Source: Siphonodentalium dalli (lineage: Eukaryota; Mollusca; Scaphopoda; Gadilida; Siphonodentaliidae). Taken from it: 64,000 nucleotides of DNA. Every line of letters starts with the position of its first letter. Within the stretch, counting starts at the first letter, position 1. The position numbers were made by a program, and so were the translations under genes. The DNA lies in contig CP136066.1 in NCBI GenBank assembly GCA_032622095.1, forward strand, positions 203,072,978 to 203,136,977, in the 5' to 3' direction. Below the pieces are notes generated by a model. That model was given only the letters and a program-made list of their open reading frames with translations, was not told the DNA's origin and searched no databases. This document shows, piece by piece, positions 8,894 to 46,950 of the stretch.

Positions 8894-9440
8894 TACAGTA
8901 ATGCCCTAAATAATCGACTTCTTAACCACAGCAGAATTATGGGTAACTTTTCAGGATTTAGTCGGAAATATGGCTTGTTGCCATCCATCGGAAAGCTCTC
9001 AGTGAGAGCTTTCCGATGAATGGCAACAACCCATATTTCCGACTTAATCCTGAAAAGTGAGAGCTTTCCGATGAATAGCAACAAGCCATATTTCCGACTA
9101 AATCCTGAAAAGTGAGAGCTTTCCGATGAATAGCAACAAGCCATATTTCCGACTAAATCCTGAAAAGTGAGAGCTTTCCGATGAATGGCAACAACCCATA
9201 TTTCCGACTTAATCCTGAAAAGTGAGAGCTTTCCGATGAATAGCAACAAGCCATATTTCCGACTAAATCCTGAAAAGTGAGAGCTTTCCGATGAATAGCA
9301 ACAAGCCATATTTCCGACTAAATTCTGAAAAGTGAGAGCTTTCCGATGAATGGCAACAATCCATATTTCCGACTAAATCCTGAAAAGTTACCCATAATTC
9401 TGCTGTGGTTAAGAAGTCGATTATTTAGGGCATTACTGTA
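8894..9440. mobile_element. Family B palindrome with one arm amplified
   Basis: Termini TACAGTAATGCCCTAAATAA and its complement are intact, with TA at each end. Instead of one right arm, the stem segment GAGCTTTCCGATGAATGGCA to CCTGAAAAGTGA is repeated seven times with a 55-bp period (about 9000-9388). Unit variants (CAACCCATA with CTTAATCC, versus CAAGCCATA with CTAAATCC) recur every three units, giving a 165-bp higher-order period. The 147-codon minus-strand frame across it is an artefact of the repeat. Confidence 0.9.
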
Positions 9441-10355: not shown

Positions 10356-10516
10356 TACAGTAATGCTCTAATTAATCGACCTCTTAACAAAAGCAGAATT
10401 ATGGGTAACTTATCAGGATTTAGTCGGAAATATGGCTTGTTGCCATTCATCGGAAAGCTCTCCCCGAGAATGGCAACAAGCCATATTTCCAACTAAATCC
10501 TGAAAAGTTACCCATA
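10356..10516 (+). mobile_element. Family B, left part, split by a 5-kb insertion
   Basis: Begins TACAGTAATGCTCTAATTAA and runs through the hairpin to AAAAGTTACCCATA. The remaining 44 bp of this same copy resume at 15582 (ATTCTGCTTTGGTTAAGAGG to CTACTGTA). Confidence 0.9.
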
Positions 10517-13500
10517 TAGTCCAGGAGATATTGGTCGACCTCTGCACCCCCCCCAGGACTCAACTTCACCCCACTAATTTTTTTCCTTAAGGTCTCCTCT
10601 AATTTTTTTCACTTGTTAACAAGAAAAAAAAGTGGCCGCAGAGACTCCAGACAAGATGGCGTCCATCATGGCGGCCATTTTTTTTAATGCACCAGGTATT
10701 TTTGATCGCCATTATAGTAAAGATGATAGCACATGCGGTCTTGTTTTCCGCTCGATTCGTTATGCTAATATACAACCCTTACAAATTAGCCAAATATCCG
10801 ACACCAGAATCCAATATGGCGGCCAAGATGGCCGCCGAAATGTGAAAATATGCTATTTTTCTGACATGTTACCACCTTTCGTTTGTCTCTGTGGGAAAAT
10901 GTTAGAATTTTTGCGTCATGTTATACATTTATCATATAGAGGAGTCATTGGCGAACACACGGGGACCATAATATGCATTCATTGCGGGATATTTTTGTCC
11001 GATATCACGTTTTCCCAAATGCCGGTATCATAGGTCAAAGCCGAATCTCCGTTAATAACGCGATGTTATGTTTCGAATCAATGAATGTTATTGCTATTAT
11101 AGCAACACACATGCATATATATTTGCAGGAGATACTCGAGATAGGATTCCTCTTATACCTGAGTTGAGAAATATTTACCCAAATCCAAGATGGCGGCCAA
11201 AATGGCCACCAGAAATAAAAAATCGCCGAAAATCGCTGATTTTAACATCAAAATGAGCATTATTGTCATGACAACTCCACACCTGCTTACTATTGTAAGT
11301 TGGGAACACTTAGGCGAAGAACTTTCCTTGTACCATATCCAAACAAAAGTCCCCCAATTCAAAATGGCGCCCACAATGGCGGACAGATTTTGAAAAATCA
11401 CCGAAATTCCCTCATATTCACATCATTGGGCATTATTGTCGAGACAACTCCATCCGTGCATACAGTTGAGTTGGAAACACTGAGGTGAAGTAATTACCTT
11501 ACATCTCATGCAAGAAATGGTTTTCCAAATTGAAGATGGCGGCCAAAATGGCGACCGAAATTTGAAAACAAGTCTACATTCCTTTACTTTCTTACGATGG
11601 GCGTTATTGTTTCGCGATTTCTATCCAGCATTACATGTTGATATGGAATAGTGATATGAAGTATTCATTAGGGTTTGGCAATTGATACTCACAGCCAAGA
11701 TCGCTGCTAAATTGGCGGCTAGAAATTGAAAAGAAATCGATATTTCCACATATTAATTTCAACTTTTTGTCATAATATCGGTATGTATGGACGAAACTGT
11801 ACATAAACCATCTGCTAGTTCAACTTAAAGGTATAAAAACGCATAACATAGCTCGTATCCTTCTCGAAAGATGAAAAACCACCATTAATATCGCGATGTG
11901 GCATTTCGAAATCCAGTCTCCACTTAGCACCGATAATGGCCGTAAGCGAGGTGCGCCGAATAGTTATATCAGAACAATTACCTGATAACAGATTCTGATT
12001 TGCCACGTCACGTCCATAATTATCTGGACCAGCTTCCATTTCTTTGTCTGATAAATATAGGTCGCTCACACCGACAAATTATTCACCACTTCCTGGGAGT
12101 AGGGTCCCTCTAATCATAACGTTTAAAACAATTCATTTCCGGTGTCTAGCTTACGATTTTAAATATTTGCTAAATATGATATTTGTGCGTCATCTTGAAC
12201 TAGGAAGGTACATGGCCGATGAGTATACAAGCTTACAGAAGGTCATCTCTATGTATGTGTCTCATACCCCATGGGATAACGACATGTACACCTGGCGAAC
12301 CAGTTAGCTAGTCACTTCTCAATAGATGGTTTATCAACTCACAAACTCAGCGAACGCATTGGCATATGTGGACAACTTCGACAGTGTTTCGAAGGTTGCT
12401 AGCTGTCTCATTCCCTTGGACAGATGTCTATCTGCTAAGGAGAAGACCCTAGTGTACAGACTACCCACACTTCTTGACCATTATCCGAAGCAAACTGTGT
12501 GACGCCCCGCAGTTGTCTCGTCGAATATCTCCCCGCAGAGAAGAACAATGCTCGCGGCGCTAGTTTGTGGACATGCGCCATGATACTGGGAATGAAATGG
12601 GCCACTGTATACACCACCCCTACACCTGGTGCATGTTTAAGATATCGAATGGCATGCGTGTCGGTTTTATTTGGTGTGGTAAGATTGTATTTCCACATCC
12701 GTTTCGAAGCCTTTCTGATTCAACTACGTACACTTTTGCTTGGATAATACTATGCTAGCCTCCCTCAAAACAGTCGGATGGACTAAAGGATAATGTCTTA
12801 AAAGCATGAATGTATGCGTGTTTTGTTATCCTCGCTCGGGGTTAGGGTCAGTATGTGGGCGATATTATTCAAGAAAATGTCAGGAACTGTGGTGCATTTA
12901 TTTCACTATGTATTTAAAGCACAATATACAGTCTCGATGGCAATGGCTGTGGACGTTGGGGAACGCGACCTTTATGATCATATAGCTTTATATATATAAC
13001 TTTAGAATATAGTAGTTAATGTCTCATGCAGGAAAATGGTCGCATTGGTGATGTTACCAAGAAATCACTTGGTGTGCCAACGTTTGTTGAACTGAATGCA
13101 AGAGCTCATCAATGTAAAATTCCTCTGGATGTTCTTCGCGTTGAACATTTAACCCTTTTGTTGGTGGCATTTGTACATTCTTGAACCATACCACCCAGCG
13201 TGAGCATGACATATCAACCAACTATCAAAGGTATCGCCTTTAAGACTACACCCCAGTCTTGGTGGGGCTTATACAGCAGTAGCCAATGGCATACTCCTGG
13301 TCCAGTTGTTTAAGAACGGCTTCCAAACGGATGGGAACATACACTCTTAGCATACAAGGAAGGCAAAGCCACACATGAGATCCTGTCGGAATCTAAATCA
13401 TAACAAAATGAGGGGCGGTGCAGTCATGGTCCAATTTCATTTCCACTGTCATGACACATACCCACAAACTAGCACCGTGTGTATTGTTATCATCTGCTTG

Positions 13501-15578
13501 GATCTGTTCGGTGAAACGATTGCTGGACGCCAACAAGCTTGTTTTTATGATCATGTTCAAGGAGTTTGGGTATATTATGCATTATGGTCTTCTACGGCTA
13601 CGCCTAAGCAGAAATACATCCGTTAAATGTCGGGCTTTCAACATTCGAAGCCATATACAGAAGTTGTCCGGGTACGTCAGTGCATTAGATGAGTATGTGA
13701 ATTGATAAACCATATATTGAGAAGTGGCTGTTTGGGGAGATCACCAGGTGTACACGTTGTTATCCCCATTAGGTCAACAAAGCTGACAATACGCAGATAG
13801 ATAGGTCCTTCTGAAAGCTAGTATACGCATCGACCGAATACCTTTATAGTGTATCGCACAAGATGACGCATATACCCCATATGTAGCATCTGAATTATAC
13901 CATAAGCTATACCACGAATGAAGCTCGCTAAGAATTCCAAGTTTTCGAAACAAACACGTGAGCTGGACACCGGCATATGTATTGTTTGAAACATTCCGAT
14001 TAGTGGCACACTCCCACAAAGAAGAGTAGTGAACTGTTATTGTGAGTGAGATAGATTAATCTGACGAAGAGATGGAAACGAGTCTAGATGATACTGAATG
14101 TGGCAATTCAAAATAAGCTCAGGTACTGTTGTTTTGATTCTTGGAAGTCATAATATGACTATTCGGCGCACCTATATACGGTTACGGCCAGTGTGAGCCC
14201 TTAGTGAAGAATGGATTTTGAAATGCCACATTGCGATTGTGGGTTTTCATCCTTCCAAAAGGCTACGACTTACATTGGAACTAATAGATGGCTCATATTA
14301 TGTACCGTTTCGTTTATACAAATCAATATTATGACAAAAAGTTGAAATTAGTATGTGATAATATCGGCTTCTTTTCAATTTCTGCCTGTCAGTTTGGCCG
14401 CCATATTGACTGTGAGTATCACTTGCCAAACCCTAATGAATAATTCATACATATCAACATGTAATGGTGGGTAGAAATCGCGAAACAATAACGCCCATCC
14501 TAAGAAAGTAAAGGAATGTAGGCGTGTTTTCAAATTTCGGTCGCCATTTTGGCCGCCATCTTCGATTTGGAAAACCATTTCTTGCATGAGATGTAAGGTA
14601 ATTACTTCACCTCAGTATTTCCAACTCAACTGTACGCATGGATGGAGTTGTCTCCACAATAATGCCCAATGATGTGAATATGAGGAAATTTCAGTGATTT
14701 TTCAAAATCTGCCCGCCATTGTGTGCGCCATTTTGGATTTGGGGGACTTTTATTTGAATATGGTACAAGGAAAGTTCTTCGCCTAAGTGTTCCCAACTTA
14801 CAATAGTAAGCAGGTGTGGAGTTGTCATGACAATAATGCTCACTGATGTTAAAATCAGCGATTTTCGGCGATTTTTTATTTCTGGTGGCCATTTTGGCCG
14901 CCATCTTGGATTTGGGTAAATATTCCTCAACTCAGGTATAAGAGGAATCCTAGCTCGAGTATCTCCTGCAAATATATATGCATGAGTGTTGTTATAATAG
15001 CAATAACATTCATTGATTCGAAACATAACATCGCGTTATTAACGGAGATTCGGCTTTGACCTATGATACCGGCATTTGGGAAAACGTGATATCGGACAAA
15101 AATATCCCGCAATAAATGCATATTATGGTCCCCGTGTGTTCGCCAATGACTCATCTATATGATAAATGTATAACATGACGCAAAAATTCTAACATTTTCC
15201 CACAGAGACAAACGAAAGGTGGTAACATGTCATAAAAATAGCATATTTTCACATTTCGGCGGCCATCTTGGCCGCCATATTGGATTCTGGTGTCGGATTT
15301 TTGGCTAATTTGTAAGGGTTGTATATTAGCATAACGAATCGAGCGGAAAAAAAGACCACATGTGCTATCATCTTTACTATAATGGCGATCAAAGAGACCT
15401 GGTGCATAAAAAAAAAATGGACGCCATGATGGACGCCATCTTGTCTGGAGTCTCTGCGGCCACTTTTTTTTCTTGTTAACAAGTGAAAATAATTAGAGGA
15501 GACCTTAAGGAAGAAAATTAGTGGGGTGAAGTTGAGTCCTGGGGGGGGTGCAGAGGTCGACCAATATCTCCTGGACTA
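10517..15578. mobile_element. Giant inverted-repeat (foldback) element, 5.06 kb
   Basis: Ends TAGTCCAGGAGATATTGGTC and GACCAATATCTCCTGGACTA are exact complements and are flanked by ATA on both sides (10514-10516, 15579-15581), an apparent 3-bp target duplication. The outer arms (10517 to ~11780 and ~14320 to 15578) differ at only a few percent of bases by eye. Further in (~11780-12700 against ~13380-14320) the arms are still alignable but far more diverged. The outer arms carry repeated AAGATGGCGGCCAAAATGGC blocks about 170-350 bp apart. I recognise no transposase. The frames at 10632-11033, 12044-12307, 12435-12747 and 13774-14019 are not conserved as protein between arms. Confidence 0.9.
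13026..13184 (+). CDS. Small unassigned ORF at the centre of the foldback
   Basis: ATG at 13026, 52 codons, stop TGA at 13182. Internal peptide GDVTKKSLGVPTFVELNA and KIPLDVLRVEHL looks protein-like in composition. It sits almost exactly on the centre of the 5-kb palindrome, in the only stretch without an inverted partner. The preceding TCATGCAG is also a possible splice acceptor, so it could be a captured exon rather than a free-standing ORF. Function unknown; it may be chance. Confidence 0.25.
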   Translation: MQENGRIGDVTKKSLGVPTFVELNARAHQCKIPLDVLRVEHLTLLLVAFVHS

Positions 15579-15581
15579 ATA

Positions 15582-15625
15582 ATTCTGCTTTGGTTAAGAG
15601 GTCGATTAATTAGAGCACTACTGTA
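15582..15625 (+). mobile_element. Family B, right remainder of the split copy
   Basis: ATTCTGCTTTGGTTAAGAGG through GAGCACTACTGTA completes the family B copy that starts at 10356. The variants CCTCTTAAC and GTTAAGAGG are complementary across the split, confirming one original element. Confidence 0.9.
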
Positions 15626-15901
15626 TAAAGTCAATAAAAGAACCAGAACAATTAATTTTGTAGATTGCGAATTAGTTCTCACTCATTGGCAATTGAAAAA
15701 GGCAGACATATAAGCGGCCCCCCAATGCCCCGATAACGTACGAGTATACAAATATTGTGACTCAAGATCCATTGAAGATGAAAAACATTTCGTTCTTTAT
15801 TGTCAAAAATATGTCGGATTGAGAAAAGACGTACGCGTCCTATGGATGGGTTAACATGACTATTAATAGCTGGTCAACATTCTCGTCTGCACTGTTTGTT
15901 A
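15626..15901. other. No gene recognised
   Basis: Unique stretch, no supported feature. Confidence 0.3.
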
Positions 15902-16013
15902 TACAGTGAGAGCTTTCTGATGAATGGCAACAACGCATATTTCCTACTAAATCCTGAAACGTTACCCATAATTATTCTGTGGTTAAGGAGTCAATTAATA
16001 GGGCATTACTGTA
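15902..16013. mobile_element. Family B half-copy
   Basis: The left terminus TACAG is fused directly to the right arm (GTGAGAGCTTTCTGATGAAT to GGGCATTACTGTA). The left arm is deleted, as expected for deletion within a palindrome. Confidence 0.8.
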
Positions 16014-16954: not shown

Positions 16955-17112
16955 TTGCCCTCTAGGCTGGTCCCTGTCTCCCATATCACCCTCTAGGCTG
17001 GTCCCTGTCTCCCATGTCATCTTCTAGGCTGGTCCCTGTCTCCCAATTCACCCTCTGGGCTAGTTCTCTACCAAGTCGCCCTTTAGGCTGGTTCTCTCCC
17101 AAGTCACCTGCT
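16955..17112 (+). repeat. ~31-bp minisatellite, about 5 copies
   Basis: Unit CACCCTCTAGGCTGGTCCCT plus GTCTCCCATAT. The same sequence occurs singly (reverse complement) near 23008, 32011 and 38575 within family E, so the array has grown from an E segment. Confidence 0.75.
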
Positions 17113-46228: not shown

Positions 46229-46358
46229 AATAGTTTTAGAAGGTACCCCACAAAAACAAGATTCATTTAATGCCAAAAGTAGAATTTATACATTTTTGAA
46301 AAATACTCCCAATGAGTTAAAAAGATGCCAAAATGTTTTGATAAGATCATCATCAGTT
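46229..46358 (+). other. Short unassigned open segment
   Basis: Reads IKIVLEGTPQKQDSFNAK and TFLKNTPNELKRCQ before the 57-bp array. Composition is protein-like but I recognise no family and see no start or acceptor. Could be a relic of a mobile-element protein. Confidence 0.2.
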
Positions 46359-46872
46359 GCAGATTGCTGACTATATGCCATGCTAAGCGCATGTCACATA
46401 ATGTTTCGACTCGTTACAGATTGCTGACTATATGCCATGCTAAGCGCATGTCACATAATGTTTCGACTCGTTACAGATTGCTGACTTTATGCCATGCTAA
46501 GCGCATGTCACATAACGTTTCGACTCGTTACAGATTGCTGACTATATGCCATGCTAAGCACATGTCACATAACGTTTCGACTCGTTACAGATTGCTGACT
46601 ATATGCCATGCTAAGCGCATGTCACATAACGTTTCGACTCGTTACAGATTGCTGACTTTATGCCATGCTAAGCGCATGTCACATAACGTTTCGACTCGTT
46701 ACAGATTGCTGACTATATGCCATGCTAAGCGCATGTCACATAACGTTTCGACTCGTTACAGATTGCTGACTTTATGCCATGCTAAGCGCATGTCACATAA
46801 CGTTTCGACTCGTTACAGATTGCTGACTATATGCCATGCTAAGCGCATGTCACATAACGTTTCGACTTGTTA
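46359..46872 (+). repeat. 57-bp minisatellite, 9 copies
   Basis: Unit CAGATTGCTGACTATATGCC plus ATGCTAAGCGCATGTCACAT and AACGTTTCGACTCGTTA. 57 is a multiple of three, so one frame stays open for ~190 codons (repeating RLLTICHAKRMSHNVSTRY). Units alternate TATATGCC and TTTATGCC about every second copy, hinting at a 114-bp higher-order unit. No signal of translation. Confidence 0.93.
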
Positions 46873-46950
46873 CTATATGGATTCTCCCAGTGAGATATAA
46901 ACATAGTCTTTGGAATGGTCTATTATTTAACTGGAGGGGCTTTCAGGAAA
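46873..46950. repeat. F repeat fragment
   Basis: TATGGATTCTCCCAGTGAGA and GGAATGGTCTATTATTTAAC match 16120-16190. Confidence 0.55.

Follow-up and report, generated by a model that had tools for sequence, protein, structure and literature searches.

A foldback-type transposon of a scaphopod mollusc with concerted outer arms and independently evolving inner arms

INTRODUCTION

The stretch analysed here, referred to as the window, comprises 64,000 nucleotides of the scaphopod Siphonodentalium dalli (assembly GCA_032622095.1, contig CP136066.1, positions 203,072,978 to 203,136,977). Between its positions 10517 and 15578 lies a palindrome, the arms of which are nearly identical on the outside and strongly diverged on the inside, and the locus thus raises the question of how the arms of one palindrome come to show two such different degrees of likeness. 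An earlier note, made from the letters of the window, had offered two answers: a recent homogenisation of the outer arms by gene conversion, or the gain of a younger inverted repeat outside an older one. We show below that the palindrome is a non-autonomous, non-coding DNA transposon of the foldback type, and we consider it highly likely that its outer arms evolve in concert through arm-to-arm conversion, that its inner arms evolve independently of one another, and that the element is moved in trans.

RESULTS AND DISCUSSION

A dispersed family with 3-bp target duplications

The palindrome is real: its arms end exactly at 10517 and 15578, with a perfect ATA just outside each, and it starts with TAGTCCAGGAGATATTGGTCGACC and ends with the reverse complement of the same sequence. 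The ATA-flanked element is inserted within another repeat, and the empty site, GTTACCCATAATTCTGC, is visible in a sister copy of this host repeat (~9387-9403); the 3-bp duplication is therefore backed by an empty-site comparison. The longest closed open reading frame (ORF; ATG, GTG or TTG start) within the element encodes 133 aa, and four ORFs of its inner half gave no Pfam match above cut-off, the sole match below it being TMEM251 (E 0.045). Additionally, an Rfam scan of the window gave no match, and the folding of the left tip is unremarkable (z -1.47).

The 18-bp tip, with up to two mismatches allowed, has 2,765 + 2,712 matches in the genome (2.23 Gb in 9 contigs), as against 24 + 22 (46 in total) for a reversed control; with two tips per element, this amounts to roughly 2,700 elements. 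Around the best matches 20 stretches were fetched, 18 of which hold the whole element uninterrupted at 97.7-99.3% identity; L015 carries the whole element plus an insertion, and L024, a partial match only, was excluded from the copy set. L015 is absent from the 19-copy alignment and present in the 20-copy projections. The earlier description of 10517-15578 as a single palindrome of no named family must, accordingly, give way to that of one among many mobile copies of foldback type.

Perfect 3-bp target duplications flank all 20 copies of what we term subfamily A, the window copy included, and their letters vary (TGT, AAG, CAC, CGA, ATA and others). The same holds for 17 of 19 further elements, picked on contig C1 for their varied length, the exceptions being L038 and L040. 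L046 and L047 are counted separately in the latter figure; they lie ~61.6 kb apart on C1, agree in length, hit table, duplication and printed flanks, and are probably one insertion that was duplicated along with its surroundings. The 19 aligned subfamily A copies are 98.9-99.6% identical to their own consensus, which points to a young burst. L036 represents another young subfamily: 40 of the 41 matches listed for its inner part (L036 itself included) are at 96-100% identity, the remaining one being a short 79% piece.

Some elements depart from the standard build. L033 and L034 (C1:33144405-33159519) are one element, split at consensus position ~2030 by a ~9.9-kb insertion that contains self-complementary stretches. 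The derivatives L035, L037 and L043 are short and resemble hairpins, their arms being unequal; each has a perfect 3-bp duplication.

Two tiers of arm identity and a sharp border

When the left half of the element is aligned to the reverse-complemented right half and identity is taken in 50-bp bins, values of 92-100% extend from 10517 to ~11616, are followed by 84-93% to ~11766, and then fall to 66-86% with many gaps. In summary, the arms share 97% identity in the outer ~1.1 kb, 87-90% in the ~0.16 kb that follow and ~80% further inside, and likeness is at chance level in the central ~0.6 kb. The intermediate tier (consensus 1101-1260; window ~11618-11777) has an arm identity of 0.893 in the window and 0.900 in the consensus. 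The two tiers and the fairly sharp step between them, as originally described, are thus evident in the bins; the position given for the step, 11780/14320, is not, since it lies nearer 11600/14490, with the intermediate tier in between. Likewise, the arms can be traced towards the centre as had been claimed, albeit to within ~0.3 kb of it. Homology of the inner arms is far above chance to around consensus 2200 (window 12716, partner 13313), four segments within 1101-2200 having local alignment scores of 194, 183, 121 and 127 against shuffle maxima of 25-30, whereas the innermost ~330 bp on the left and ~265 bp on the right score 20 and 16, no better than their shuffle maxima of 25 and 26.

The same profile is seen throughout the 20 subfamily A copies, in which within-copy arm identity is 0.965-0.982 at 1-1100, 0.860-0.907 at 1101-1260, 0.793-0.811 at 1261-1640 and 0.778-0.799 at 1715-2200. 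Moreover, 11 non-A elements have data for both bin 1001-1100 and bin 1101-1200, and in 10 of them identity drops by at least 0.06 from the former to the latter. Runs of identity between the arms reach 254 bp in the outer arms and are at most 28 bp past position 1056. In subfamily A, the homogenised zone ends at a sharp border, at ~11595-11624, and it coincides with an array of ATGGCGGCC-type motif doublets, the motif of which we take to resemble YY1 sites. All five ATGGC doublets of each arm fall within this zone; a single extra ATGGC site lies past the border in the right arm, at position 1177 from the right tip. The features of the element are as follows.

10514-10516, no strand: target-site duplication, left copy, ATA (empty site in the sister host-repeat copy)
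10517-15578, no strand: whole element, subfamily A, 5062 bp, without a long ORF
10517-11595, + strand: left outer arm, homogenised with its right counterpart, ~97% identity
10656-11557, + strand: five ATGGC motif doublets of the left outer arm, 12 bp apart (consensus 140/152, 300/312, 674/686, 847/859, 1019/1031)
11596-11777, + strand: left border zone, consensus arms 87-90% identical, exchange almost nil
11778-12716, + strand: left inner arm, ~80% identity to its partner, left-arm inheritance in the tested subfamilies
12717-13312, no strand: central spacer, no detectable arm homology (local scores against shuffles)
13313-14326, - strand: right inner arm, right-arm inheritance in the tested subfamilies
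14327-14499, - strand: right border zone
14500-15578, - strand: right outer arm, homogenised with its left counterpart
14536-15440, - strand: right outer arm counterparts of the five ATGGC doublets (counted from the right tip, 142/154, 303/315, 677/689, 850/862, 1022/1034)
15579-15581, no strand: target-site duplication, right copy, ATA

Outer arms in concert, inner arms apart

Trees of the arms were built from 18 rows, namely the A consensus, four of the 20 A copies and 13 other elements; L032, L033/L034, L035, L037, L043 and L047 are absent from them, as is the inner left arm of L042, for which there were too little data. In the inner-arm tree, the 17 left arms are monophyletic and separate from the 18 right arms. 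The outer-arm tree is of a different kind: the two arms of the same copy are sisters in seven of the 18 rows (L029, L030, L036, L038, L040, L042 and L048; support 0.79-0.993), the four arms of L031 and L039 make one clade, and most of the other rows mix by subfamily. Pairwise identities tell a similar story. Within the inner arms, all 13 non-A elements have a within-copy identity (0.752-0.793) below their same-arm identity to A (0.876-0.979), whereas in the outer arms the within-copy values (0.917-0.976) are about level with the same-arm values (0.888-0.980), and exceed both of them in five elements, L029, L030, L031, L036 and L038. The excess is clearest for L036 (0.958 versus 0.910 and 0.905) and L038 (0.934 versus 0.888 and 0.905).

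Exchange between the arms is also seen at single sites. At diagnostic positions, at which the left and right arms of the consensus have different bases, the base of the other arm occupies 22 of 439 outer cells versus 11 of 3,954 inner cells (Fisher p 4e-15), with a third base in 1 outer and 13 inner cells; this corrected count is confined to 11 copies, sub-lineage A2 and L015 being omitted as their states are possibly ancestral. Site 1078 is the last outer site with exchange in several copies, and the 15 sites from 1107 to 1236 show three exchanges. A further observation concerns changes private to one copy: seven times, the identical private change is present on both outer arms of a single copy, as against 0.37 expected (none of 10,000 permutations reaches seven), and on the inner arms there is no such case. 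None of the 20 subfamily A copies shows an arm swap across the outer sites, the only swapped state being at one site of L025.

It was other copies, a search for which the earlier note had recommended, that decided between conversion and an added repeat, and the trees, the diagnostic sites and the private changes on both arms of copies together uphold homogenisation of the outer arms by conversion. The claim that this was recent holds for the homogenisation and fails for its timing; repeated is the more appropriate word, because single copies hold private changes on both arms and, in several subfamilies, an outer arm clusters with the other outer arm of its own copy.

A number of observations weigh against this interpretation. 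Of the 18 rows, 11 lack sister outer arms, and nine of these belong to subfamily A or C; in A (with its sub-lineages) and in the C-like copies, left and right outer arms are still partly separate; and the right outer arms of L041, L045 and L046 lie beside, not within, the clade of left arms. In eight of the 13 non-A elements, the outer within-copy identity is not above both same-arm identities to A, so that conversion proceeds slowly in comparison with the latest bursts. The raw counts of other-arm bases over all 20 copies (107 of 799 outer; 3 of 600 at 1101-1260, 7 of 2,515 and 9 of 3,554 inside) are inflated in the outer arms, where A2 and L015 perhaps keep ancestral states, and some of the seven private events on both arms may be polishing errors between near-identical arms. 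In L042, the drop at the border is just 0.035 (0.880 to 0.845), and the outer identity is lower, at 0.917. Finally, each subfamily beyond A and the C-like group is sampled by just one or two copies.

Alternative explanations

The step could, in principle, be a junction at which a younger inverted repeat joined the outside of an older palindrome, and its sharpness and its matching position in 10 of the 11 elements tested would fit such an origin. The outer arms do, however, exchange bases within lineages and are sisters in seven of the 18 rows of the trees, which contradict this explanation. Moreover, subfamilies differ from one another in the same arm to a similar degree in the outer and inner regions, as shown by the identity of L036 to A (0.910 and 0.905 outer; 0.889 and 0.876 inner). 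The second of the two original answers is therefore rejected, and we regard it as very improbable. Alternatively, selection for transposase binding might keep the outer arms alike without any copying between them; the confinement of the motif doublets to the outer arms is in keeping with this, and a connection between transposase binding and the repeated units of foldback arms has been drawn (PMC4079207, in part). The private substitution rates are, however, near-equal (0.0049 and 0.0047 per site in the outer arms; 0.0043 and 0.0049 in the inner arms), so that purifying constraint is ruled out as the sole cause of the outer likeness. Selection of this kind also sits ill with the identical private changes borne by both arms of a copy and with the ~9% difference of the outer arms between subfamilies (L036 versus A), and we find it scarcely credible.

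Two further explanations were considered. Arms that are 97% alike within a 5-kb element are difficult for short reads, and one arm might have been copied onto the other by an assembly or polishing error. Such an error is unlikely as the sole cause, and we attach next to no weight to it: the A2 pattern of outer-arm states is largely common to eight copies at different loci, sister outer arms occur in copies of other subfamilies as well, and the outer arms of A copies still keep differences of 1.8-3.5%. Homogenisation might instead proceed chiefly between different copies, through ectopic recombination. Private changes are indeed also common to arms of different copies (seven over 380 ordered pairs), and chimeric copies are known for Galileo (PMC3573991, in part); the seven cases within one copy are, however, ~19 times the per-partner expectation of 0.37, and an exchange chiefly between copies is, in our judgement, unlikely. 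Conversion between the two arms of one copy is thus the explanation that we carry forward.

A possible course of events

The tips and target duplications suggest a non-autonomous element that would be moved in trans by a transposase producing 3-bp duplications. Its arms, each ~2.2 kb in length, form or once formed a palindrome. That the outer ~1.1 kb of the arms copy each other within one element is shown by the patterns above; they would repeatedly pair and be copied by gene conversion or template switching, such that both arms of a lineage change together; inside this limit, copying would have ended before the sampled subfamilies split, and the arms would have been drifting apart since. The step at which copying takes place may be repair after excision or template switching during replication. 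As to the persistence of the border, the lengths of the identical runs are consistent with a conversion process that needs long identical stretches, in which case divergence would lock itself in.

More tentatively, and with rather less than even confidence, we propose that the ~1.1-kb border is a self-locking front: stretches that have escaped conversion would drift and never be recaptured, the outer arms would be renewed while the element moves, and a protein bound at the doublets may start or confine the copying. If so, the ~2,700-element family would offer a natural experiment, many times replicated, on the threshold of identity that conversion requires. The element holds two pairs of arms in one molecule, one copied and one uncopied, with near-equal substitution rates and known ends in what seem to be thousands of elements, and hence a built-in control for measuring the rate and tract length of arm-to-arm conversion, and the identity that it needs.

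Classification and the search for a transposase

The element has two attributes of the foldback class, in that long inverted arms form most of it and it is mobile, with dispersed copies and target-site duplications. Candidates for repeated units within the arms are the motif doublets, at uneven spacing, and degenerate 71-nt units; there is no high-scoring tandem array. The PIF/Harbinger superfamily makes 3-bp duplications restricted to TWA, and the varied duplications of the element are at odds with this restriction. CACTA/EnSpm elements have CACT-type termini; the length of their duplication, 3 bp, is that found here, and the termini of our element are TAGTCC. The 7-8 bp expected of the P superfamily (Galileo) and the 8-10 bp expected of Mutator/Foldback are both at variance with the 3-bp duplications of the 20 subfamily A copies. 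The length agrees with those of Zator (3 bp) and AcademX (3-4 bp), as given in part of PMC10045372.

An autonomous partner with the same tips was not found among the long copies, the odd tips, the anchors or the profile searches with PF07592, PF02992 and PF13359. The long copies (L015, L030, L031, L033 with L034, L039 and L040) match the consensus except for inserted or duplicated segments, on which no protein-family search was made. Tips followed by foreign letters occur at four places, and at 11 places an anchor at ~145 bp gives way to other letters; all of these we read as small insertions or deletions in ordinary arms. The ISAzo13-like transposase profile of Zator (PF07592) had no hit in the genome, its control being equally silent. 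PF02992 had 78 genome matches, and none of the 10 loci fetched contains an element tip with at most three mismatches. Sites with four mismatches are present in these loci, one in L051, L052, L055 and L058, and another in L052-L058; the site at 3019 of L051 was rejected as an element end, as its flanks on both sides are common to copies elsewhere. DDE_Tnp_4 (PF13359), the transposase that a PIF/Harbinger partner would supply, gave 910 candidates, of which 150 were scored and listed. Three PF02992 and three PF13359 places (C1, below 78 Mb) are not near the tips listed, a weak test given that these were 100 exact tips, all on C1. In a literature search with the tip word, among the matches listed, none was on transposons by its title and none had the 17-letter tip word.

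Separately, L051-L058 hold several near-identical copies of a 909-aa ORF for a CACTA-type transposase, a likeness suggestive of recent activity; a ~475-bp stretch beside this ORF is absent in four of the eight.

Neighbouring repeats

The host repeat of the insertion (10356-10516 and 15579-16000), a small element with inverted arms of ~108 bp, contains a 55-bp tandem unit (GAATGGCAACAAGCCATATTTCC...); a further copy occupies 8894-9440, and 15908-15999 is a related stretch. Elsewhere in the window, 16961-17064 holds three copies of 31-bp direct repeats, and a repeat array at 46325-46900 keeps a 191-aa open frame of 19-residue units (RLLTICHAKRMSHNVSTRY).

Comparison with known systems

In the titles and the opening parts of abstracts of the papers listed by our searches we found no description of fossil inner arms inside a converting transposon palindrome, although such may exist elsewhere. 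The papers compared below are each cited from parts of their text. Arm-to-arm conversion keeps the arms of the human Y palindrome P6 alike while its spacer diverges more, as in our element; P6 is, however, an immobile chromosomal segment with ~100-kb arms that are >99.9% alike (PMC3723533). For ISWpi1 of Wolbachia, too, the two terminal repeats of a single copy are described as recombining with conversion; this insertion sequence differs in being bacterial and coding, in having terminal repeats of 23 bp, and in that inversions are seen (PMC3004938).

Among transposons, Tetris/Foldback is similarly palindromic and non-coding, with arm domains containing repeated units and a transposase that was not found, its authors suggesting Mutator; unlike our element, it has 8-10-bp duplications and true ~220-bp tandem repeats, and only three structurally complete Tetris copies are reported in its assembly (PMC4079207). 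Galileo, a foldback-like element of the P superfamily in Drosophila, shares with ours the long inverted arms, the many non-autonomous copies and the presence of several subfamilies per genome. The arms of one Galileo copy are 98-100% identical, and in the proposal of its authors recombination and conversion are drawn to long arms, which would explain why such arms recur in unrelated superfamilies (PMC3573991). It differs in its 7-8-bp target duplications (PMC4168063), and a fossil inner pair of arms, present in our element, is not seen in the parts of PMC3573991 and PMC4168063 that we cite. The length of the duplication separates the present family from both Galileo and Tetris. Conversion between long transposon arms having already been proposed for Galileo (PMC3573991), the element of S. 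dalli is a variant of a known build.

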